Source: Clostridia bacterium (GTDB taxonomy: Bacteria > Bacillota > Clostridia > Oscillospirales > Acutalibacteraceae). From it: a stretch of 64,000 nucleotides of DNA. Positions 49,278 through 64,000 of this stretch are shown piece after piece. The position numbers and the translations under genes were made by a program. Positions within the stretch are counted from its first letter, which is position 1; each line of letters starts with the position of its first letter. The stretch spans positions 186,001-250,000 of the forward strand of contig JAFQRY010000011.1 of the NCBI GenBank assembly GCA_017409845.1, written 5' to 3'. The notes beneath the pieces are model-generated. The model had not been told where the DNA came from. It did not search any database and saw only the letters and a list, made by a program, of their open reading frames with translations.

Positions 49278-52200
49278 ATGTCAGACATGTTCAAAAGAGT
49301 AACCTCCGTTGTTCTTGCGGTGTTAATTCTCACGGGAACATTCTCAATCGGCGGCCTTATCGGAGCAAAAGATATTTTTGTTCCCGATGCACAGGCGGCT
49401 GAAGCGATTGACGGATATTTTACCTATGAGATTGACGGCAGCGGCAACGCAACCATCACAAAATGCGACCCGTCTGTGAGCGGACCATTCAGTATTCCGC
49501 CGACTCTCGGCGGCTGTGATGTTACCGCTATCGGCGATAACGCATTTTACAACTGTGACAAAATAACCCATGTCTATATTCACGAGCTTATAACCCGTAT
49601 CGGGCAGGGAGCGTTTCGGGACTGCAATAACCTTGAAAAGGTTGAGTTTTCACCAAAGAGCGAAATAATTGATATTGAAAACTACACCTTCCATTATTGC
49701 AGAAAGCTTACCGATATCAACCTTCCCGACGGACTTCTGAGCATCGGTGATTATGCATTTGGTAATTGTCAGGCTCTTAAAGAAATAGAAATACCCGATA
49801 CAACCGAAACCATCGGAAACGATGCTTTTTGTTGGTGCACAAGCCTTGAAAAAATCGAAATTCCCTCAACAGTAACAACAATCGGTTACAGAGCTTTTAG
49901 CAGCTGTCAGAAGCTTGCCGATGTGACTCTCAACGAGGGTCTTGTCAGTATTGGTAATTATGCATTTTCCGGTTGTTATTCACTTGAAAAAATTGAAATC
50001 CCCTCAACGGTTACGACTATCGGAGAAAGGGCTTTTGAAAGCAGCGGACTTAAAAAAATTGAAATTCCCGCAAGCGTTAATTCAATCGGATTGCATGCAT
50101 TCCTTGCTTCTGTTTCCGAATTTGATGTTGACGAAGAAAACAGAATGTATTCGAGCGACGAAAACGGTGTTCTGTTCAATAAAAACAAAACAGAGCTTAT
50201 TCAGTATCCTTCCGTAAACGAAAGAACAAGCTACACCGTTCCCGACGGAGTAGTTTCGGTAGCCGAGGGAGCTTTTATTAATGCAAAAAAGCTTGAAACC
50301 GTTGTTTTGCCTGCAGGTCTGAAGAGAATAGGCGACCAGGCTTTCTCCAACTGCAGTGCTCTGTCCGGAATTACAATTCCTTCAGGCGTTACATCGCTTG
50401 GCGGCGGTGCGTTCAGCGACTGTGACGGTCTGACCGAAATCACTATCCCTGCAAGTGTCGGAATTATTGGAGCAAGCGCTTTTATAGACTGCGAAAGCTT
50501 GTCAAAGGTTGAGATCTCCGACGGCGTAACCGCTATAGGTTCATATGCGTTTGAGGATTGTGATGCACTTAAAGAAATCATAATCCCTGCAAGCGTTGAA
50601 ACAATAGGATATGATGCATTTAGCTGGTGCGAAAGTCTGACCAAGGTAACCCTCAATGAAGGGCTTGTTCTTATTGACGATCGTGCATTTGATTATTGTC
50701 CCAAGCTTGCTGAAATCACAATTCCCGCAAGCGTTACATATATCGGCTATGATGCATTTTACGGTTGTGGTGCTCTGAAAACCGTAAACATCGGCGGAAA
50801 CAAAAATATTACAATTGACACAAGAGCTTTCCGTAGTTGCAATGCTCTTGAAGCAATCAACGTTGACGAAGCAAATGCCGGTTATTCAAGCGAAAACGGC
50901 GTTCTTTTCAATAAGGATAAAACGGCTCTTATCAAATATCCTGCAGGAAAGACCGAAACAAGCTATGAAATCCCCGACGGTGTTGAAACTATAGGCTATG
51001 AGGCTTTCGAGTATGCAAAAAATCTTGAAAGCATAACCATGACCGACAGCGTGAAGAGAATTGAAGAATACGCTTTTGAAGGCTGTGAAAAGCTCGAAAA
51101 AATCACAATTTCCGATAATATTGAGTATATCAGCGAAGATGCATTTTACGGCACACTGTTATATAACGAAGAAGAATTTAACCAAGACGGTGCGCTTTAT
51201 GTTGACAACATCTTTTTCGGAATACGCAGAGATCTGGAAACGCCCGTAACGGAATATGAAATAAAAGACGGTACGGTTTATATCATGCCCGGTGCGTTTT
51301 CATCAATGTACGATCTTACCAAGGTAACAATTCCCGCTTCAGTCAAGGTTATCGGCACCAACGCTTTTGCTCAGTGTCAGAAGCTTGCAAGTGTTACCTT
51401 TGAAGACGGAAGCATGCTCAAAGAAATCGGCGACAGAGCATTCGCAACCTGCCTTTCGCTTTATGAAATCAATGTTCCCGACGGCACAAAGAAAATCGGT
51501 CAGGAGGCATTCTACGGCTGCACCAATCTTAAGGTGATTTCTCTTCCCGATTCAACGGAATCTGTTGCCTGTGATGCCTTTGAAGATGCAATCTATCTTC
51601 TTAATACCGATAACTGGGAAAACGGCGTTCTTTATATCGGCAATGTTCTTTATACAGCCGACCCCGAAAAGCTCCCGGAGTCTTATGAAATCAAGGCAGA
51701 TACAGTCTGCATTGCCGATATGGCTTTCTATGATTGTCGCAGTCTCAAATCCGTTGTTATTCCCGATACGGTGAAATATATCGGCAACGGTGCCTTTTAT
51801 AATTGCGGTAACCTTGCAAATGCAAACATTCCTACCGGTGTGGTTTCAATCGGAGCTTCAGCTTTTGACAACTGTAATTTAAAATCGGTTACCATTCCCG
51901 CTTCGGTAACAGCTATAGGCGAAGGTGCGTTCCAAAATTGTGATAATCTTACCGAGGTAATCTTTGAAGAGGGAAATCAGCTTGAGAAAGTGGAAGCCGA
52001 AACATTTAGTTGGTGCTCGAATCTCAAATCAATTAGCCTTCCCTCAACCGTAACCGAAATAGGTTATGAGGCATTTTACTATATGAATCATTACTATAGT
52101 TGGAATGATAATGGTATTGTAGAATTTGCCTTCCCCGAAAGCCTTAAGGTTATCGGAGAAAATGCTTTTTACAATGCAGGAATAAAAAATGCAGATATCC

Positions 52201-54818
52201 CCGAGGGAACGGAAGAAATCGGAAACTATGCTTTCCAAAATTCTGCTGTTGAAACCGTCAGCATACCCTCAACGGTGACAAAAATCGGTGAAAATGCGTT
52301 CTTGAATTGTAATAACCTGACCGAAATAACCGTTGCACCCGAAAACCCCGTTTATTCATCCGAAAACGGTGTTCTTTTCAATAAGGATAAAACTGTTTTG
52401 TTTGCATATCCCAAGGCTTTGGTGGCCTCATACACCGTTCCCGCTTCTGTTGAGAAAATAGAAAATGATGCTTTTTATTATGCAAAGATAACAGGATTAT
52501 CATTTGCGGAAAACAGCAAGCTGAAGGAAATCGGCACAAATGCATTTTATAACTGTGACGGTCTTACGGGCTTGCTTGTTTTACCCGATGCTCTCGAAAC
52601 CGTAGGCGGCAATGCTTTTGATAATTGCTACGGAATAACAGATATCAGCATTCCTGCAAGTGTATCGTCAATCGGAAGCTGGGCATTCCATAATATGAAC
52701 AGTCTTACATCAATTACGGTTGATGCAGATAATGATTATTATTCCTCAGATGAGAACGGTGTTCTGTTTAACAAGGATAAATCCGTTCTGCTTCTCTATC
52801 CCCGTGCGAGTGCTCTTACCGAATATGAAATTCCCGCTTCAGTAACGGAAATTTCGGAATATGCTTTCTATAATGTTTCAAAGCTTTCGGAAATCAGCTT
52901 TGCGGATAACAGCAGACCTACATTAATCGGCAACGATGCTTTTCGGAATTGCAGCAGTCTTGCGGAAATTATCCTTCCCGAAACGGTTGGATATATCGGC
53001 AATGGTGCATTTGCTAATTGCACAAGCCTTCCCTCAATCCACATTCCCGATGCGGTTACGGCTTTGAACTCATCCACATTCTCTAATTGCACAAGCCTTG
53101 AATCCATCACCTTTGGTGATGACAGCCGACTTTCTGTGATTGATTCAAACGCAATCAGTTCTTGCAATGCTCTTGAAGAAATCACAATTCCAGCAAGAGT
53201 AAAAAGCTTTTCTTATGGCAAATACAATCCTTTTGATGACTGCCGGGGTCTCAAAGCGGTTAAGGTTGATGAAGATAACCGATATTTTACTGCTGAAGAC
53301 GGCGTTCTTTACAGCTATGATAAGCAAACCGTTTATTGTTACCCCCGTGCAAAAGAAGCTGCTTCATATACCGCACCCGTTGAGCTTACAACAGTTGCAA
53401 ACTATGCATTTGCTTATAATACTAACCTCACCGAAATCACCCTTTATGACAACATAACCTATATAGGTTATTATGCATTTAACAACTGTGGATATTACAA
53501 CGATGCGAGCAACTGGGAAAACGGCATGCTCTATATCGGCAAGTATCTTGTTGCTACAAATTATGATTATTATGATGATGAAATTCCTGCTGTTCCTGCC
53601 GATTGCACAATAAAAGAAGGCACCCTGCTTACGGCATATGACACATTCGATGGTTGTTTTAACCTGGAAACTTTAACAATACCCGATTCGCTTTTGTATT
53701 TATACAGCGATATAATATATGATTGCTATAACCTCAAGACAATTTACTACGGCGGTTCACCCACTGAATGGCTTGACCTTAAAGTAAGAAGCGGCTACAG
53801 TGATTATTATTGGGAAGAGCTTACAAAGAAGGTTGAGGTTATCTATGGCAGAAGCGACGAAAAAGCAACTGTTTCCGATGAGGATACCGACATAAGCATT
53901 GAATACTATGAAGATATCTATAAGGACAAGGGCGAAATTGACATTAATGTTGAAAAATCTCTTGACGAAACCGCATTTGATATCATCAGCACTCAGCTTG
54001 ATGTCAATCAGAAAAATCTTTATGATATCACAATGACTCTTGACGGCGTTGAAATCCAGCCCACAGGCAAGGTCAAGGTCAGAATTCCCGTTCCCGCAGG
54101 CTACGACCCTGCAAAAACCTTTGTTTATCATGTTGATATCGAAACCGGCAGAGTTGAAAAGATGAATGCTGTGGTTGAGGTTATCGACGGCAAGACCTAT
54201 CTCGTGTTTGAAACAACACATTTCAGCTATTATGCTATAGTTGAAAAGGTGATGGAAGATCTTCCTGTTCCTCCTCCCACCAAGCCTTCCGAACCTGTAA
54301 CCAAGCCTACCGAACCTACAACCAAGCCCACCGAGCCCTCAACTAAACCCACCGAACCTACAACCAGACCCACCGAACCTACAACCAGACCCACCGAGCC
54401 CACAACAAAGCCTGAAGAGCCTACAACCAAGCCTCCCGTCACAGAACCCGAAAAGCCGATTGAAATCAAGGCTCCTTCCGTGACCGTGATTAGATACGGC
54501 GACAGCATCAATCTTCATGCAAAGCTCGGCAGAGATGTCGGTCTTCCCGAGGGCTATTACATTAAATGGACCGTCAACAACGATAATTTCCGTGTTGTTT
54601 CAACCTCACTTGACAATATGTCATGCAATATCACACCTGAAAACAACGGCGACTCCGAGATTACAGTTACGGTCTATGATTACAACGGCGGTGTTATCTG
54701 CAGTGATTCTCAGACGATGACCGCAAAAGCAGGCTTCTTCCAGAAGATATTCGGCTTCCTGAGAAGAATTTTCGGTCTTAACAAAGAAATCCCCGCACTC
54801 ATCAGAAAGTATTTCTGA
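49278..54818 (+). CDS. secreted BspA-type leucine-rich repeat protein
   Basis: 1846 residues. A signal peptide (VTSVVLAVLILTGTFSIGGL, cleavage near AQA about residue 40) is followed by some 1400 residues of LRR_5 units with the pattern I-(P)-x-S-V-x-x-I-G-x-x-A-F-x-x-C. Spacer blocks (YSSENGVLFNKDKT) recur several times. A beta-rich domain (about 1530-1650) and a Pro/Thr linker (KPTEPTTKPTEP repeats, about 1665-1724) precede a small C-terminal domain and the basic amphipathic tail FFQKIFGFLRRIFGLNKE. There is no LPxTG anchor. Such proteins bind host or bacterial surfaces. GGAGAG precedes the ATG. Confidence 0.88.
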   Translation: MSDMFKRVTSVVLAVLILTGTFSIGGLIGAKDIFVPDAQAAEAIDGYFTYEIDGSGNATITKCDPSVSGPFSIPPTLGGCDVTAIGDNAFYNCDKITHVYIHELITRIGQGAFRDCNNLEKVEFSPKSEIIDIENYTFHYCRKLTDINLPDGLLSIGDYAFGNCQALKEIEIPDTTETIGNDAFCWCTSLEKIEIPSTVTTIGYRAFSSCQKLADVTLNEGLVSIGNYAFSGCYSLEKIEIPSTVTTIGERAFESSGLKKIEIPASVNSIGLHAFLASVSEFDVDEENRMYSSDENGVLFNKNKTELIQYPSVNERTSYTVPDGVVSVAEGAFINAKKLETVVLPAGLKRIGDQAFSNCSALSGITIPSGVTSLGGGAFSDCDGLTEITIPASVGIIGASAFIDCESLSKVEISDGVTAIGSYAFEDCDALKEIIIPASVETIGYDAFSWCESLTKVTLNEGLVLIDDRAFDYCPKLAEITIPASVTYIGYDAFYGCGALKTVNIGGNKNITIDTRAFRSCNALEAINVDEANAGYSSENGVLFNKDKTALIKYPAGKTETSYEIPDGVETIGYEAFEYAKNLESITMTDSVKRIEEYAFEGCEKLEKITISDNIEYISEDAFYGTLLYNEEEFNQDGALYVDNIFFGIRRDLETPVTEYEIKDGTVYIMPGAFSSMYDLTKVTIPASVKVIGTNAFAQCQKLASVTFEDGSMLKEIGDRAFATCLSLYEINVPDGTKKIGQEAFYGCTNLKVISLPDSTESVACDAFEDAIYLLNTDNWENGVLYIGNVLYTADPEKLPESYEIKADTVCIADMAFYDCRSLKSVVIPDTVKYIGNGAFYNCGNLANANIPTGVVSIGASAFDNCNLKSVTIPASVTAIGEGAFQNCDNLTEVIFEEGNQLEKVEAETFSWCSNLKSISLPSTVTEIGYEAFYYMNHYYSWNDNGIVEFAFPESLKVIGENAFYNAGIKNADIPEGTEEIGNYAFQNSAVETVSIPSTVTKIGENAFLNCNNLTEITVAPENPVYSSENGVLFNKDKTVLFAYPKALVASYTVPASVEKIENDAFYYAKITGLSFAENSKLKEIGTNAFYNCDGLTGLLVLPDALETVGGNAFDNCYGITDISIPASVSSIGSWAFHNMNSLTSITVDADNDYYSSDENGVLFNKDKSVLLLYPRASALTEYEIPASVTEISEYAFYNVSKLSEISFADNSRPTLIGNDAFRNCSSLAEIILPETVGYIGNGAFANCTSLPSIHIPDAVTALNSSTFSNCTSLESITFGDDSRLSVIDSNAISSCNALEEITIPARVKSFSYGKYNPFDDCRGLKAVKVDEDNRYFTAEDGVLYSYDKQTVYCYPRAKEAASYTAPVELTTVANYAFAYNTNLTEITLYDNITYIGYYAFNNCGYYNDASNWENGMLYIGKYLVATNYDYYDDEIPAVPADCTIKEGTLLTAYDTFDGCFNLETLTIPDSLLYLYSDIIYDCYNLKTIYYGGSPTEWLDLKVRSGYSDYYWEELTKKVEVIYGRSDEKATVSDEDTDISIEYYEDIYKDKGEIDINVEKSLDETAFDIISTQLDVNQKNLYDITMTLDGVEIQPTGKVKVRIPVPAGYDPAKTFVYHVDIETGRVEKMNAVVEVIDGKTYLVFETTHFSYYAIVEKVMEDLPVPPPTKPSEPVTKPTEPTTKPTEPSTKPTEPTTRPTEPTTRPTEPTTKPEEPTTKPPVTEPEKPIEIKAPSVTVIRYGDSINLHAKLGRDVGLPEGYYIKWTVNNDNFRVVSTSLDNMSCNITPENNGDSEITVTVYDYNGGVICSDSQTMTAKAGFFQKIFGFLRRIFGLNKEIPALIRKYF
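54270..54443 (+). repeat. KPTEPTT-coding tandem repeat
   Basis: Within the leucine-rich repeat gene, near-identical 18-24 base units (ACCAAGCCTACCGAACCTAC type) encode the Pro/Thr/Lys/Glu linker. It is a cell-wall-spanning style linker and likely varies in length between strains. Confidence 0.75.
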
Positions 54819-54940: not shown

Positions 54941-55390
54941 TTACTCTTCCATCTGTTTTCCGAGAAATGATGCGGCAATCTGTGCAAGCTTTGTTTCGGT
55001 CTGAGTGGGGCATGAACCGTTGTCATTCATAAGCATGACTATTGCTCCCGAAACGTCGCCGCCTCCGATAATGGGAAATGCAACCGCCGCCTCTCTGTTA
55101 TAACCCTCAACGGGTCTCATTCTCTCGCTGTCAACGCAGCAGACATAGTTTTCTCGTTTTTCCATAAGACTCTCAAGACTGCTGCTTATCCGACGGTCGA
55201 GCACCTCTTTTTTTGCTACGCCCGCACATGCAATAACGCTGTCGCGGTCGGTTATGATAACCGCAAGCCCGGTGCCTCTTGCAAGCACCTCGGCATACTG
55301 TGCCGTGATTGACGACAGCTCGCCGATAGGCGAATACTTTTTGAATATAACCTCACCGTCTGTATCCGTATAAATCTCCAACGGGTCGCC
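54941..55390 (-). other. SpoVT-derived 3' part of the recombinase gene
   Basis: Codons 573-721 of the recombinase frame. From memory, SpoVT starts with about 30 residues of the AbrB swapped hairpin ending REGDPLE and is about 178-180 long. The part seen here begins exactly at GDPLE and is 149 residues long, so 30 + 149 gives the whole protein. The DNA-binding start of SpoVT is absent on this side. Best reading: the element integrated into spoVT and the recombinase now reads through into its remainder. Confidence 0.7.
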
Positions 55391-57106
55391 GTTATTGATA
55401 ACATTGACACTGTAAACCTTGTCCGAGTGATTTCTGCTCACTTGGACTATTTCAGTTGATGCGATATCTACAGTGCCTGAATTAAAATTTGCGGCTTCCT
55501 CCAAGGGTTCGGGAAGCGTTCCGCATCTGAGAATCATATCAATATCGCGCTGAAGCTTTATTTCAATATGATCCTCAAAAACATAAATCGCTTCGATTAT
55601 CAGCTCGAGATCATTACGCTCGAGCTTTTCTTTTGTGAGGATATCAGAGAAAATATCGATGGCAGTTTTTGCAACACGGTTAACTCTTATAATTGTGTTG
55701 CGCTTATCCGAGAGCAAGTCAATCTGATGCTTCAGACCGTCAATTTTTCTTTGTAAATCCGATTCAAGCTCGTCGTACATATCTTCAATATCCGCTTCAC
55801 GGTCAGGATTTTTCATAATTTCACGGATACGCATACGTTTTGTTACCTTAAGTTCTTCATTCAGTTCAACAAGAACCTGAGCAATGTTTTCTGCAGTCTG
55901 CTCGGTTTCTTCGATATTCTCGTTTTCGTGTTCAAGGTCAGCATTGAGCCGATCAATCATAGCTGCAGAATTCTGCATGACTTTTTCAACGTAAAGCTTT
56001 ACGACTTCATCAAGCTTGTCCACACGGATATGATGACTTGTGCAACCTTTGAGTCCTCTTCTGTGATAGGTTCCACAGGTATAGGCAGATTTTCTTGACT
56101 GTCCGCCCGTAGCAAACATCGGACTTCCGCAGTCACCGCATTTGAGTAAACCTGAATAAATATTATCGTTGATTTTTACGCCGCGGTAGTTGTTGCGCGA
56201 ACGGCTTTCCATAGCAGCACGGGCGAGAGCGAAAGTATGGTAATCAATAATTGCCTGATGATGATCTTCATGGATAATATGGTTTCCGTCATCAAGTTTT
56301 TTGCTTTTACCGTTGATTTTTACCCGTGTATATTTGCTTTGTCTCAGAGTGCCGATATAAAAATCGTTCTGAAGGATACCGTGAATTGTTTCGATTGCCC
56401 AGACAGCCTTGACCTGCCGCTTATACTCTTTGCCCTCAGCTTCCTTCCGCATCTGCTCTGACATTCTCGGAGTAGGAACACCGCTGTCAGTCAGATAATT
56501 TGCGATGCTGTTATAACCCATACCTTCATTAATATAAAGGTCAAAGATTTTTCTGACGATCTCTGCTTCTGTAGGAACAATCTCAAATTTCTTGTGAGCA
56601 TTGATGATATAGCCGTAAGGCGCAGCACAAATCCATTCACCGTCATTCTGGCGCCGTTCAATAACGTTCCTGACTTTTCTTGAAGTTTCCGTAACGGGCA
56701 TTTCGTTCATAATAAAATGAATTGAAATTTTAAACCAGTCGTTGTTATTGGGGAAATCAACGTTATCACCAATAGATATGATACGCACACCTTCGTCACG
56801 GAAATTTTCCAATTCCATAAGACCCTGACTGGTACGGCGCGAGAATCTTGAAAAGTCTTTTACGATAAGAATATCGTATTTATGGGATAAAAGACCCTTT
56901 CGCATTTCCTGATAGCTTTCACGCTGATCAAAGGTGTAACCTGAGCGGTCACGTTCTTCAAAAAAGGTGAGATCGCTGCCGGGAAAATTGATTTTTACAT
57001 AATCGGCAATAATTGCCTTCTGGTTTTCAATTGAAACATTGTCTCGGTCAAGTTCATCATCGACCGAAATGCGGACATAGCCCGCAATATTGAACTTTTC
57101 TGTCAT
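54941..57106 (-). CDS. large serine recombinase with SpoVT-like C-terminal extension
   Basis: 721 residues. The resolvase domain starts at once: Y10-VRIS14 with S14 as catalytic nucleophile, then EERDRSGYTFDQR and VKDFSRFSRR. The recombinase domain follows (about 165-290), then a zinc ribbon (LKCGDCGSPMF, YTCGTYHRRGLKGCTSHH) and a coiled coil (about 395-500). Up to about 560 this is a normal Clostridial integrase. Residues 573-721 are different: GDPLEIYTDTDGEV, FKKYSPIGEL and a GAF-like domain match SpoVT from its residue about 31 to the end. GAGAGGTG precedes ATG 57106. Confidence 0.9.
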   Translation of the reverse strand: MTEKFNIAGYVRISVDDELDRDNVSIENQKAIIADYVKINFPGSDLTFFEERDRSGYTFDQRESYQEMRKGLLSHKYDILIVKDFSRFSRRTSQGLMELENFRDEGVRIISIGDNVDFPNNNDWFKISIHFIMNEMPVTETSRKVRNVIERRQNDGEWICAAPYGYIINAHKKFEIVPTEAEIVRKIFDLYINEGMGYNSIANYLTDSGVPTPRMSEQMRKEAEGKEYKRQVKAVWAIETIHGILQNDFYIGTLRQSKYTRVKINGKSKKLDDGNHIIHEDHHQAIIDYHTFALARAAMESRSRNNYRGVKINDNIYSGLLKCGDCGSPMFATGGQSRKSAYTCGTYHRRGLKGCTSHHIRVDKLDEVVKLYVEKVMQNSAAMIDRLNADLEHENENIEETEQTAENIAQVLVELNEELKVTKRMRIREIMKNPDREADIEDMYDELESDLQRKIDGLKHQIDLLSDKRNTIIRVNRVAKTAIDIFSDILTKEKLERNDLELIIEAIYVFEDHIEIKLQRDIDMILRCGTLPEPLEEAANFNSGTVDIASTEIVQVSRNHSDKVYSVNVINNGDPLEIYTDTDGEVIFKKYSPIGELSSITAQYAEVLARGTGLAVIITDRDSVIACAGVAKKEVLDRRISSSLESLMEKRENYVCCVDSERMRPVEGYNREAAVAFPIIGGGDVSGAIVMLMNDNGSCPTQTETKLAQIAASFLGKQMEE

Positions 57107-57311: not shown

Positions 57312-58038
<727 letters not shown>

Positions 58039-58348: not shown

Positions 58349-59341
58349 TCACACTCCTTTCTCCTTATTTTTACTTGTGGCGGCTTCTTTATTCGCCGCG
58401 TTATTCCTTGCGATTTTTATAAGTTCGGGCGGTAGACCATCAACTGTTTTCCTCAGTTCTTCAAGTTCGCTGAGCTTCTGATTGATTTCAAGCTTTCTTT
58501 GCACGCTGTCTTTTGATGCAGAGTCAAGCTTCTTTTCGAGTTCACTGACTTCTTCGGTCAGCTCCTTATATGCCTTATCGTATCTTTTCAGCTTTGTTCT
58601 CAAAGCTTCAACTCCGGGAATATATCTTTCAAGAAGAGCTTCAAGCTCCTCGGTTTTTGTCTTTTTATTGATTATGTTTGTATCCGCCATCAGGGTCATA
58701 ATCTGTTCCTTCATGCGGTTAAGATGCACAGCTTCTTTGAAAAGCGAGGGAGGAATATGCGTTCTTCCCGTCACGCTTGCACTTTCGCCGCGCTCCATAT
58801 CGGGATATTTCTTGACCATGTGTTTCCAGAATTCATCCTGCCACCAGGTCAGCTTTTTTCTGTTGCCGACTATGTCTTTTGCACTCAGTCTGCCGTCTTC
58901 CGTTATCGGAACGAACGACAGATGCATATGCGGTGTTTTTTCATCAACGTGAATTACCGCTGATATGATTCTTTCTTTTGGAACGTGTTTCAGAATGAAT
59001 TTCAGTGCATGTTCAAAATATTCTCTGACCTGTGCTTTTTTCTTTCCCTTGAAGAATTCGGGACTTGCTGTTATAAGTGTTTCAACAACTCTCACGCTGT
59101 CTGTTCTTGTTCTGCAGCCTGCGGCTGCAATCTGTCTTTCCGCTTCCGCACGGTATTTTGAATTCGGTTTAACAAGATGAATGTTGTATTTGCTTCTCTC
59201 GGTATCAACGTCGGGATTGCTTGCATAAACCTCTTTCGTGCGTTCATTATGTGCCTCAATTCTGCTGATTTCGGGACCTTTGTATTTTGCAAATCTCATT
59301 ATTGCGTGCTGACTTTTCGTTTCTTTGCCTATAAAAATCAC
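58349..59341 (-). CDS. MobV-family relaxase (Pre/Mob)
   Basis: 330 residues from GTG 59341. MRFAKYKGPEISRIEAHNER is the MobV start block with the conserved HNER, and VIHVDEKTPHMHLSFVP is the metal-binding HxDExxPHxH signature. The C-terminal third is coiled coil. The enzyme nicks oriT and leads the strand into the recipient. The start is uncertain: GTG 59341 overlaps the upstream stop (GTGA) but touches AAGGAG, while ATA 59332 has ideal 8-base spacing, and ATG 59299 lies inside the conserved block. Confidence 0.88.
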   Translation of the reverse strand: MIFIGKETKSQHAIMRFAKYKGPEISRIEAHNERTKEVYASNPDVDTERSKYNIHLVKPNSKYRAEAERQIAAAGCRTRTDSVRVVETLITASPEFFKGKKKAQVREYFEHALKFILKHVPKERIISAVIHVDEKTPHMHLSFVPITEDGRLSAKDIVGNRKKLTWWQDEFWKHMVKKYPDMERGESASVTGRTHIPPSLFKEAVHLNRMKEQIMTLMADTNIINKKTKTEELEALLERYIPGVEALRTKLKRYDKAYKELTEEVSELEKKLDSASKDSVQRKLEINQKLSELEELRKTVDGLPPELIKIARNNAANKEAATSKNKEKGV

Positions 59342-59910
59342 TCCTTGTTTTCTTTGATATATTTTTCAAGATGTTCAATACAGTTGTTGCAGAAAAGGTC
59401 GTCAACAACCTCGTTCTGTTCTTCCATTGTGCCTGTGTCGAGAAGCTCCGCCATGTATTCGGTAACCTCAAGCATACGGCAGGCTTCGGCAAATCTCGGA
59501 TGCAGTTTTTCATCTGCGGTTTTCGGTGCATAGTCAGTCATCCATTTCCGCAGAATGCGGTTGTAATCACAAAGAACACGCGCACATCTGTCACGGCGTT
59601 TCTGTTTTTCCTTATAGAAATTCAGTTTTGAATTAACGGAAATTTTCATTGTTTCAATGCCGTAATCGTCTGCAATTCTCTGCGCCGCATCGGCGGCAGA
59701 CAAGCTGAGATGTTCAGCGACAAGACTGATAACGTCACCCTTTGCACCGCAACCGAAGCAGTAATAATATTTGTTGTTGAGTTTCATGCTCGGTGTACGG
59801 TCATCGTGAAACGGACAGCGGACCATCGAGTTTTTACCGATATCCATTCCGTATCTTTCTGCCGCCATGCGCAGATTTACTTTTGATCTGACAGCTTCAT
59901 AAATTGACAT
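59338..59910 (-). CDS. CHC2 zinc-finger primase-like protein
   Basis: 190 residues. C32-PFH35 and C51-FGC54 (CPFHDDRTPSMKL, YYYCFGCGAKGD) form the zinc finger of DnaG-type primases. The Toprim catalytic core is missing: after residue 90 only a helical region follows. It may prime or help replicate the element, or regulate transfer. It is the first gene of the mobilisation operon, overlapping the relaxase frame by 4 bases. Confidence 0.85.
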   Translation of the reverse strand: MSIYEAVRSKVNLRMAAERYGMDIGKNSMVRCPFHDDRTPSMKLNNKYYYCFGCGAKGDVISLVAEHLSLSAADAAQRIADDYGIETMKISVNSKLNFYKEKQKRRDRCARVLCDYNRILRKWMTDYAPKTADEKLHPRFAEACRMLEVTEYMAELLDTGTMEEQNEVVDDLFCNNCIEHLEKYIKENKE

Positions 59911-60245: not shown

Positions 60246-60632
60246 ATGGAAAATGTTTTTATCACGATAACAGGAGTCAAGAATTATTTCGGCATGAAAC
60301 CGTTCAAGATCGGTAAGATTTTCAGAATTGTCAAAGAAGACGATAACGATTATGACGAAGAAGCAATACGCGCCGAGCTTCCTGCTATCGATACAATCGG
60401 GTATGTTGCCAACAGCACAAGCACCGTTTATGCAGGTACGGTCAGTGCAGGCAGACTCTACGACAAAATTGATGATTATGCCTATGCTCAGACAATGTTT
60501 ATCACTCATTCAAGCGTTATCGCACTTGTGCTTTCACCCGATGAGGTTGAAGGCGACAAAGATGCTCCGCCCGTCAAAGAAAAGGAATCGGGTAACCGCA
60601 AACCGAAAACCAAAGCAAAAATCGGATTTTAA
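60246..60632 (+). CDS. HIRAN-domain protein
   Basis: 128 residues. The HIRAN-like fold spans about 5-95: ITGVKNYFGMKPFKIGKIFR, then NDYDEEAIRAELP and TIGYVANS. HIRAN domains bind 3' DNA ends or stalled replication intermediates. The tail is basic and disordered (NRKPKTKAKIGF). Small stand-alone HIRAN proteins are frequent on Firmicute mobile elements. AAAGGAAAAAAG precedes the ATG. It begins a + operon of five genes. Confidence 0.72.
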   Translation: MENVFITITGVKNYFGMKPFKIGKIFRIVKEDDNDYDEEAIRAELPAIDTIGYVANSTSTVYAGTVSAGRLYDKIDDYAYAQTMFITHSSVIALVLSPDEVEGDKDAPPVKEKESGNRKPKTKAKIGF

Positions 60633-60805: not shown

Positions 60806-61612
60806 ATGACATATTTACGCGGAACACCGGGAGACAGAATTGTCGATTTGCGTAAGAACAAAGGCTGGAGTCAGGAAGGACTTGCAAAGCAGGTTAATGT
60901 CAGCAATTCAACAATCAGCAGAATCGAAAAGGGAGAATCACAAAAAATCGACAGTGATGTGATTCTGAGTATCGCAAAACTTTTCGGAGTGTCAACAGAT
61001 TTTATCCTCGGACTTTCCGATGATCCCGAACCGAAAAATTTCAGTATAGGTGAACTAGGTCTGACTTCCGAAGCGGCAAAGAAAATTTATACGGGAGAGA
61101 TTGACCCCGATATTCTGAATATGCTGCTTGAACATCCGGACTTCGGATCACTGTTAAATAAAATCGCTCATTTTTTCAAAGGTACTTTTGCCGAAGGGTT
61201 TGCGGCGCAGAACCTGCTTTATGAAATGATCAGCAGAAATGTATGCGGTGATGATGAAATTTCAAAGCAGGTGTCGGAAGATATACGTAACGCAAAAACT
61301 CCGGTATATCAGGCTGACCTGACCATGATTGAAAACGGATTTATGTCCATCGTAAAAGATATAAAGAAAACCGTCGACACCGATTTTTCACATTCAAAAA
61401 AGCTTACGCAAGAAATTTTTGCGGACATCAGGCAGAGCCTTGTCAAAGGTGGCGGCAGTCTGTCATACAGAAGAATAACAGCAGAAAAAATGGCAGATGC
61501 TGTTATTGACCAGATCAGTAACTTCGACGGTATTACTCAGGAAATGAAAGACAATCTTCGCAATGCTTTGATACCGATTTTCATAAAACCGCAGAAAGGT
61601 AAGCACAGATGA
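60806..61612 (+). CDS. XRE-family regulator of the element
   Basis: 268 residues. The helix-turn-helix (about 8-65) reads IVDLRKNKGWSQEGLAKQVN and VSNSTISRIEKGESQ. A long helical C-terminus (about 80-265) carries no known sensor but may bind a partner. The stop overlaps the start of the sigma-like gene (ATGA). It probably controls the switch between stable integration and transfer; this is inferred from arrangement. Confidence 0.85.
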   Translation: MTYLRGTPGDRIVDLRKNKGWSQEGLAKQVNVSNSTISRIEKGESQKIDSDVILSIAKLFGVSTDFILGLSDDPEPKNFSIGELGLTSEAAKKIYTGEIDPDILNMLLEHPDFGSLLNKIAHFFKGTFAEGFAAQNLLYEMISRNVCGDDEISKQVSEDIRNAKTPVYQADLTMIENGFMSIVKDIKKTVDTDFSHSKKLTQEIFADIRQSLVKGGGSLSYRRITAEKMADAVIDQISNFDGITQEMKDNLRNALIPIFIKPQKGKHR

Positions 61613-62391
61613 CCAACGAAGAACTTTGCATTCTTGCACAGAGCGGTGATGAAAACGCAAAATGCGAGTTGCTGAAAAACGTTGAAAAATACATCTGGAA
61701 AATCGCAAACGATCAGGCTGAAGCATATAAAGATTACGGCATAGAAGCCGAAGAGCTTTTTCAGGAAGGAGTCGTCGGAGTGCTCAGAGCAATTCCGGGA
61801 TTCAATCCCGAACGCGGAACAAAATTTCTTACCTACGCCACATATTGGATTGTAAAACATATCAATCTTTTCATCGAAACAACAGACTGCAACAAGACAA
61901 TAAAAAACAAAGAAACCGATGAAGAATACCCTGTCACCTTCACAAGCTTTGATGATGATACAGATGATTACGACGGCGAAACCAATGCCGAATATATCGA
62001 ACGGACTCTCTTTGAACGCAAGGCAGATACCTACCGAAATACTCCTGAAAACGTGTTTTTTAAAGAGAAAAAATACAGCATCGTCAACGAAGCAACCGCT
62101 CTCCTGAGCGAAAGACAGTGGCAATATATTTCCTACCGTTTCGGTATCGAAGATAATGTTTATCATTCAAGAAAAGAGACTGCAACCCATTTCAGTTTAT
62201 CCGAATCCCGCGCAAAAACTCTTGAGAAACAAGCCCTGAAAATCATCAGAACTCATTTCGAATCACAGTGGAAATATATCAATAACTATGTTCCGCCCGA
62301 TGAAAAAGAAAAGGAATGGCTCATAATTTTTTGCAGTAAATATGATGACATACTTAAATACAAAAATACAAAATGTTTGTTTCACGGTTGA
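61609..62391 (+). CDS. sigma-70-like RNA polymerase sigma factor of the element
   Basis: 260 residues. Region 2 is clear: ELFQEGVVGVLRAIPGFNPE and GTKFLTYATYWIVKHINLFI (about 48-90). Regions 3-4 are weaker: LLSERQWQYISYRFGI, then HFSLSESRAKTLEKQALKII, a helix-turn-helix as in region 4. It starts inside the stop of the XRE gene, so the two are coupled. A sigma factor carried by a mobilizable element could direct RNA polymerase to transfer promoters. Confidence 0.82.
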   Translation: MTNEELCILAQSGDENAKCELLKNVEKYIWKIANDQAEAYKDYGIEAEELFQEGVVGVLRAIPGFNPERGTKFLTYATYWIVKHINLFIETTDCNKTIKNKETDEEYPVTFTSFDDDTDDYDGETNAEYIERTLFERKADTYRNTPENVFFKEKKYSIVNEATALLSERQWQYISYRFGIEDNVYHSRKETATHFSLSESRAKTLEKQALKIIRTHFESQWKYINNYVPPDEKEKEWLIIFCSKYDDILKYKNTKCLFHG

Positions 62392-63439: not shown

Positions 63440-64000
63440 ATCAATTTGATAAGGTCTTATTTTGTGAACAGACTCTCAATTTCTGTGTAGTCGACGCGAG
63501 CGTTTTTCTTCCGCTGCGGCGGGGATTTATATATACCGTTTGTTCCTTTTCCGAGCAGTCAGAAAAACAAATTTTTCTGTTCTTCCCTGAACTTGTCTGC
63601 CTGCTCTGCGCCAATGAAAAGTCTGCTAAAGCAATTTTGCAAGCAACAATCGCATATGGTTTTGAAAGGCATATTTCCGCCACATCTGCGTTGGAAATTC
63701 TTGAAATATCCTCGTATTTCTTCAAATTTCCGCCTTGCTGTGACGAAAATCTCCACTTCCAAAACTGCTTCGCATCTGAAACAAAAATGTTTCAGACATA
63801 TGGAATTAATGCTTACAAAATTACCGGGCAACAGCCATCCTTTTCACCGCCGACGGAACAAAGGTATAACACACTAGACTTTGCGTGCCGCAAAATCGTG
63901 TACCAAAGGAGATTTTCTCCTTTTGGATATCCACTTGTGCCGATTGCTGTGTATATACAAATTGAATTTTTCTGGCAAAAAGGTACCCACAAAAGTTCAA
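63440..64000. other. gene-poor stretch at the window end
   Basis: No frame here has a ribosome binding site and a recognisable product. Open frames on both strands (63593-63877 on +, 63559-63831 on -) overlap each other and give low-complexity, Cys- and Phe-rich products. The stretch is probably non-coding or a degraded repeat. Confidence 0.5.

Follow-up and report, generated by a model that had tools for sequence, protein, structure and literature searches.

In a stretch of 64,000 nucleotides from a Clostridia bacterium (contig JAFQRY010000011.1, positions 186,001 to 250,000; this whole stretch is hereafter the window), one open reading frame (ORF) joins a large serine recombinase in frame to the sporulation protein SpoVT without its start. 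We interpret the window as holding the left end of an integrative, MobV relaxase-bearing element that is site-specific for spoVT and enters the gene at its RE|GDP codons. Once integrated, the recombinase gains SpoVT residues 31-179 and the first 33 codons of SpoVT run into a tail of about 25 residues. Recombination between the left and right attachment sites (attL and attR) would excise the element and restore both genes, spoVT and the recombinase. This most likely occurs, probably in sporulating cells, at a frequency that keeps spoVT functional. The SpoVT moiety marks the integrated state of the recombinase. As a whole this explanation, a spoVT-splitting MobV element with a tail swap and a restoring excision, has in our estimation a probability of about 75%. 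That a site-specific element with a tail swap lies in spoVT is close to certain, and an excision that would restore spoVT is likely; for an excision timed by development we see even odds.

The fused ORF contains the Pfam domains Resolvase (residues 7-158), Recombinase (178-302), zinc ribbon (317-370) and SpoVT_C (596-720), the first three in the order of a large serine recombinase and each above its curated cut-off. An initial annotation of the window had read residues 1 to about 560 as such a recombinase and residues 573-721 as SpoVT continuing to its end. Both readings hold, with the boundary at residue 572. Residues 573-721 correspond to SpoVT residues 31-179, the NCBIfam SpoVT model (TIGR02851) matches residues 570-720 with its positions 27-180, and the alignment to the solved SpoVT structure 2w1t begins at residue 28 of that structure. 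As a whole the protein scores below the curated cut-off of TIGR02851 (147.3 bits against 235.9), model positions 1-26 being absent. A search of the same genome yielded no intact spoVT, in keeping with the annotation's proposal of an interrupted gene, and the only SpoVT_C match there is that of the fusion. Among solved large serine recombinases the SPbeta integrase SprA/YokA (9dxh) scored best, over residues 6-461. Similarity to the TnpX structure 2mhc was weak (residues 8-119), and the XisF model NF041201 was matched at E 7.9e-28, far under its cut-off.

Relatives were sought in 45 genomes of the genus, 394 of the order and, among named genomes, in the best 80 of 429 related loci; these sets overlap. 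The fusion recurs across numerous genera of a single order; in a phylum sample of 398 genomes, three from one additional family match the whole fused model. Within the genus it is present in 9/45 genomes, SpoVT_C being detected in 18 (nine fused, eight with frames of full gene length (179-211) and one fragment at a contig start). A recombinase of the window's family (E<=1e-110) was found in 35 of the 394 order genomes: 31 fused, the window's own included, two located elsewhere (G167, G231) and two unfused (G079, G405). The best 80 named loci comprise 79 fusions and one locus that a contig end interrupts at the junction or in the core of the attachment site; 77 of the 79 remain open to the SpoVT stop, and the other two are cut later, within the C-terminal part of SpoVT (SpoVT-C), by contig ends. 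A viral collection yielded 19 relatives, the best four of which (51-56% identity) comprise three fused and one cut in the core; six of the other 15 were placed in the recombinase tree described below. Plasmid and phage collections matched with 247 and 384 records, and 15 of each were inspected. The best among these are MT839487.1 (71% identity), which ends about 20 bp before the core, and MT836658.1 (46%), which is fused to SpoVT-C; the best plasmid record reaches 29% identity. The genome of the window is a 35-contig draft in which the right end of the element is missing, as might be expected of an assembly or binning artefact. Such an artefact is nevertheless extremely improbable, given 106 distinct fused alleles, fusions in isolate-titled records (e.g. 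Butyricicoccus pullicaecorum DSM 23266 and Flintibacter muris DSM 110149) and a fusion in a single-contig genome (G375). The joining of recombinase and SpoVT is confirmed as real, neither chance nor an assembly chimera.

The missing half of the gene is present in relatives. The initial annotation had predicted a minus-strand SpoVT N-terminus to the right of position 64000; it was found, with the matching junction, in related genomes but not in the window's own contig or assembly. The contig extends to 265929, 24.5 kb past the junction, and ends before any right end. An AbrB-like match at C17:49466-49603 was rejected as the SpoVT start, being only 46-47% identical. Codons 1-33 of SpoVT were recovered from 31 of 39 fused genomes, which bears out the proposal that the element integrated at about codon 31. 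All eight other fused genomes of the genus have this start, as do 23 of 30 in the order sample (own genome excluded), at 88-100% identity and leaving the SpoVT sequence at the core. Contig ends fall inside the tail of the start in G247 and in one G104 copy, and the start was not found in fused G073, G087, G110, G142, G158, G194 and G351. In 15 of the 31 it lies upstream of the fusion on the same contig and strand, between 12.7 kb (G002) and 38.3 kb (G393) away (G002, G016, G022, G050, G169, G182, G238, G342, G352, G361, G369, G375, G393, G417, G437); in another 15 it lies on a different contig. The single-contig G375 has one SpoVT_C match, in the fusion, with the two halves in the right order. 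Thus, as in skin-like elements, both gene halves stand at the element ends in one orientation in 15 relatives, the window's genome showing the 3′ half alone, and a site-specific recombinase borne by the element adjoins one end.

A second perfect SpoVT start was observed in three genomes. That of G022 (L034:406-492) lies 12 kb upstream of the first, promoter region included, and the two copies of G104 (L293) are 10.5 kb apart. That of G050 (L294:7071-7274), solitary in the midst of other genes, is a 56-codon ORF; its tail differs, and by eye it has a terminator-like sequence. These are possibly relics of earlier elements or independent small genes.

Alignment of 106 attL, 38 empty (attB) and 22 attR sites revealed GGNGAC as the shared core; it falls on the Gly-Asp codons, with the insertion at about codon 31-33 of spoVT. 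As in skin-like elements, the core is shared by both element ends and by empty sites, in relatives and in the G001/G014 pair discussed below. The right arm, which in relatives adjoins the SpoVT N-terminus, has the majority sequence GANAACATTGACA, an approximate reverse complement of the left arm TGTCAATGTTATC, and is less uniform. At this other end of the element the first 33 codons of SpoVT continue in frame into a short peptide and then a stop. Tails of 22-30 amino acids follow REG in 33 of 35 distinct split starts, a set that includes the extra copies and unfused G405 and G079. Past the attachment arm, F occupies one position in 27/33 tails and R another in 30/32. Because the core lies inside the 3′ end of the recombinase gene, integration exchanges the two C-termini reciprocally and in frame. 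Judged from these junctions, it trades a conserved recombinase tail of about 25 residues for SpoVT residues 31-179, and the short tail would be the recombinase's native C-terminus while the element is circular.

Comparison of an empty with an occupied site indicates that the SpoVT part is host DNA and not a passenger of the element. Downstream of the junction, from the GDP codons on, G001 (intact spoVT) and G014 (fused) are 93.8% identical over 2876 bp and 96.8% over 7981 bp. The SpoVT start of G014, on another contig, matches G001 together with its promoter region (94.6% over 185 bp), and farther upstream there is weaker similarity only (68-74%). This agreement between the two sites identifies the SpoVT tail as ordinary host spoVT. 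The initial annotation had offered an alternative, in which the SpoVT tail is a stable part of a recombinase family and travels with it between hosts; this would account for the 79 fused loci among the best 80 named ones. However, the identities of recombinase and SpoVT are barely correlated (r = 0.29 over 5565 pairs drawn from 106 fused alleles). In some pairs recombinases 93-94% identical carry SpoVT tails of only 39-43% identity, and conversely the window and G002 have recombinases 52% and tails 93% identical. Moreover, the 5′ half of spoVT sits at the other end of the element, and G001 and G014 have host sequence in common downstream of the junction. For the cases examined we therefore reject stable carriage as highly improbable. 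In a recombinase tree of 42 rows (32 of the 106 fused alleles and ten others) the recombinases of the window's genus fall into four separate branches. Unfused G405 and G079 were placed among the fused rows (88/76 support) on a long branch, a position from which the tree does not decide between an ancestral and a derived state. Taken together, the mismatched identities and scattered branches indicate that these elements move between hosts and land repeatedly in spoVT.

By their substitution ratios, both halves of spoVT are under the same constraint as intact genes. From pairs with at least 85% amino-acid identity, the ratio of nonsynonymous to synonymous divergence (dN/dS) of SpoVT-C was 0.068 among fused alleles (86 pairs), 0.069 between fused and intact (21) and 0.063 among intact alleles (5). 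These values replace a first set from pairs with dS 0.1-0.9, whose medians of 0.47-0.57 were inflated by saturation of distant pairs. For the N-terminus, the ratio of nonsynonymous to synonymous proportions (pN/pS) was 0.058 in 35 split starts and 0.059 in 43 intact ones. In C. difficile, spoVT is under SigF and SigG and a mutant is without heat-resistant spores (PMC3789822). B. cereus requires SpoVT, and in B. subtilis the protein belongs to the forespore, under SigG (PMC5061766). Since SpoVT is required in a studied clostridium and both halves are constrained, excision most likely keeps spoVT functional. In addition, a SigG-like match above 400 bits is present in 21 of the 45 genus genomes, next best matches being below 170 bits.

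Alternatively, spoVT may be a mere landing site that is knocked out, the tail an inert by-product, and the occupied lineages young or losing sporulation. Elements can indeed be younger than their hosts: between the window and G041 dS is 0.18 for the recombinase and 1.35 for SpoVT-C. The DNA adjoining the recombinase turns over between elements. However, SpoVT-C stays open to its stop in 77 of the best 80 named loci, the remainder (two and one) being cut by contig ends, both termini are as constrained as in intact genes, and all nine fused genus genomes retain the SigG-like gene. Furthermore, 9 of the 17 genus spoVT genes with full-length frames are occupied, a high load for a sporulation knock-out. 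We consider such passive parasitism unlikely. The data fit repeated insertion with restored function; recent harmful insertions are possible but less likely.

Several observations weigh against the restoring excision that we favour. Equal constraint does not discriminate between a split gene that still functions and one interrupted recently, and the young element of the window and G041 is a case in point. Given a recombinase frame that reads across the core into its native tail, an in-frame SpoVT fusion arises automatically, without selection for it, and is in itself no proof of function. In G234 the spoVT halves lie on one contig but on opposite strands, about 22 kb apart (L290, L291), and in G079 they are about 240 kb apart, likewise on opposite strands (L268, L269). 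In this arrangement recombination would invert the DNA, so simple excision cannot restore spoVT; both cases also speak for passive parasitism. Five of the 21 SigG-bearing genus genomes (G006, G008, G040, G045, G048) have no SpoVT_C match; this counts in favour of passive parasitism and may reflect assembly gaps or a dispensable spoVT. None of the 45 passes the curated SigG cut-off of 457 bits. B. subtilis spoVT mutants still sporulate (PMC5061766), so the gene may be dispensable in some hosts. The SpoVT N-terminus was not found in the window's own 35-contig assembly by protein search or by DNA pattern (<=3 mismatches), nor were the right attachment arm and junction peptides on its own contig (C5) up to 265929. 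No directionality factor was identified on the element, and excision in the forespore would remove the element from the spore chromosome. Finally, no excised or circular form was seen, and a scan of viral contigs with the attachment pattern gave one match only. That contig (L276) proved unrelated. Contigs ending in or just before the core (L169, L211 and MT839487.1) were considered as a possible mixture of occupied and excised DNA. One element residing in two hosts would produce an identical fork, and these contigs were not used as evidence.

As a special case of the restoring element, the SpoVT moiety, half an AbrB hairpin with a GAF-like domain, might alter the recombinase, for instance by oligomerising or by sensing a forespore metabolite. 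The integrated form would be specialised for, or locked against, excision, and the short-tailed circular form would serve integration. In support of this, the tail swap is common to recombinases only about 50% identical, and the short tail is conserved as protein past the attachment arm. Precedents exist in an engineered fusion of directionality factor and integrase that favours attL x attR recombination (PMC5737554), in a solved SprA-SprB fusion (9dxd) and in the functional, integration-dependent C-terminal change of the BPs repressor (PMC4557955). However, in G405 (L270:6777-8987) a related 562-aa recombinase occupies the identical position in spoVT yet terminates, at a stop of its own, 72 bp ahead of the SpoVT frame; targeting of spoVT is thus possible without fusion. 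Two further recombinases of the family, in G167 (L265:2292-4256) and G231 (L266:6692-8536), have a different tail with GGCGAC at the junction; both genomes contain an intact spoVT elsewhere, which places these elements at other insertion sites, without a SpoVT tail. By analogy an active role for the tail is plausible, yet an active switch, like a regulatory role of the tail in general, remains a tentative proposal that we think doubtful. Somewhat less probable again is the full scenario in which the integrated enzyme, with a host forespore sensor as its tail, alone senses sporulation, excises and restores spoVT in the forespore, and re-enters after germination with its native tail. Were it true, the element would leave the spore genome, and a germ-line (forespore) gene would be switched in a way both heritable and reversible.

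Features of the spoVT junction and of the element in the window (positions are those of the window).
Feature	Position	Strand	Remarks
Fused ORF, 721 aa (721 codons)	54941..57106	-	Recombinase and remainder of SpoVT in frame; left junction (attL) of the element
Element-borne part, recombinase residues 1-572	55391..57106	-	Resolvase, Recombinase, zinc ribbon and C-terminal linker
Host-borne part, SpoVT residue 31 to stop	54941..55390	-	Second half of AbrB hairpin and GAF-like SpoVT_C domain
Left arm of attachment site, TGTCAATGTTATC	55397..55409	-	Consensus of aligned attL sites
Attachment core, GGCGACCC	55383..55390	-	Gly-Asp-Pro codons; GGNGAC part common to attB, attL and attR
MNT-type nucleotidyltransferase	57312..57653	+	Cargo; neighbours the HEPN protein
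HEPN-domain protein, cargo	57643..58038	+	
Small protein, 82 aa	58094..58342	-	No Pfam or NCBIfam family; conserved upstream of recombinase
MobV/Mob_Pre relaxase	58349..59341	-	Mobilization; MobV above cut-off
CHC2 zinc-finger DnaG-like primase fragment	59338..59910	-	
Conserved protein	60246..60632	+	No NCBIfam family; similar DNA in G019, G021 and G041
XRE-type regulator	60806..61612	+	Sub-threshold NCBIfam matches only; common to G041
Sigma-70-like protein	61609..62391	+	Common to G041

The element is integrative and probably mobilizable; it carries a relaxase together with its integrase, as integrative and mobilizable elements do. A similar ORF to that of the 82-aa protein lies within 3 kb upstream of the recombinase in 77 of the 93 fused loci with 700 bp or more of upstream sequence, making this protein a candidate directionality or regulatory factor. 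The toxin-antitoxin-like MNT-HEPN pair (window 57312-58038) is absent from the G041 element, which is otherwise 96.2% identical to that of the window over 4244 bp. Adjoining the right end of the G041 element is a DUF6061 protein (L257:5803-6144) with sub-threshold similarity to TnpV, possibly a regulator or directionality factor; by eye, a like gene follows the right end in G022. In G234, genes such as an EF-G-like one were seen by eye between the spoVT halves. Directly downstream of the split spoVT of the window, and convergent with it, lies the gene of an 1846-aa BspA-type leucine-rich repeat protein (window 49278-54818), and BspA-type genes were seen by eye at the matching place in G022 and G041.

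These data describe a real and widespread element family with a new target, spoVT, and a new architectural trick, the tail swap of the recombinase. The family adds to the few known sporulation-gene elements and occurs in Oscillospiraceae-like gut and rumen bacteria. It offers, on a serine integrase, a domain swap that occurs naturally and depends on integration, and bears on the role of the GAF-like domain of SpoVT and on the coupling of mobile elements to sporulation; cultured isolates exist. Among the papers listed in our literature search, none dealt with an element in spoVT.

Among genes interrupted by such elements, spsM and spoVFB are mother-cell genes. The published sporulation-gene elements, skin (sigK), SPbeta (spsM), vfbin (spoVFB), gin (gerE) and yin (yabG), resemble the present one: a sporulation gene is interrupted inside its coding sequence by a mobile element that brings a site-specific recombinase (PMC5595907, PMC10747680). 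The mother cell is where sigK and gerE act, and gin is a non-phage example (PMC5595907); yabG belongs to the SigK regulon (PMC10747680). In contrast to such mother-cell targets, spoVT is a forespore gene in both B. subtilis (PMC5061766) and C. difficile (PMC3789822), and an excision in the forespore would be inherited by the spore. The present element also differs in that the recombinase itself is fused to the 3′ half of the gene, and its excision is predicted. SPbeta, whose integrase SprA/YokA (9dxh) is the best-scoring solved recombinase, likewise resides in a sporulation gene; unlike in the SprA/YokA-SprB/YotN fusion (9dxd), the C-terminal partner here is natural, a host SpoVT half gained by integration. 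XisF of the fdxN element is a developmental excision recombinase of the same superfamily, but its host, target and architecture all differ from those of the window element. TnpX-type serine recombinases go with Mob_Pre mobilizable elements of the Tn4451 kind. The window element recalls these by its weak similarity to TnpX (2mhc) and its Mob_Pre/MobV relaxase, and departs from them in its target, a single codon position of spoVT, and in the C-terminal swap that accompanies integration. The integration-dependent immunity of mycobacteriophage BPs is alike in that the attachment site lies inside a gene of the element and integration alters the C-terminus of the product (PMC4557955). In BPs, however, the gene is that of the repressor, which loses 33 residues (PMC4557955), whereas here a recombinase gains a host domain of 149 amino acids.

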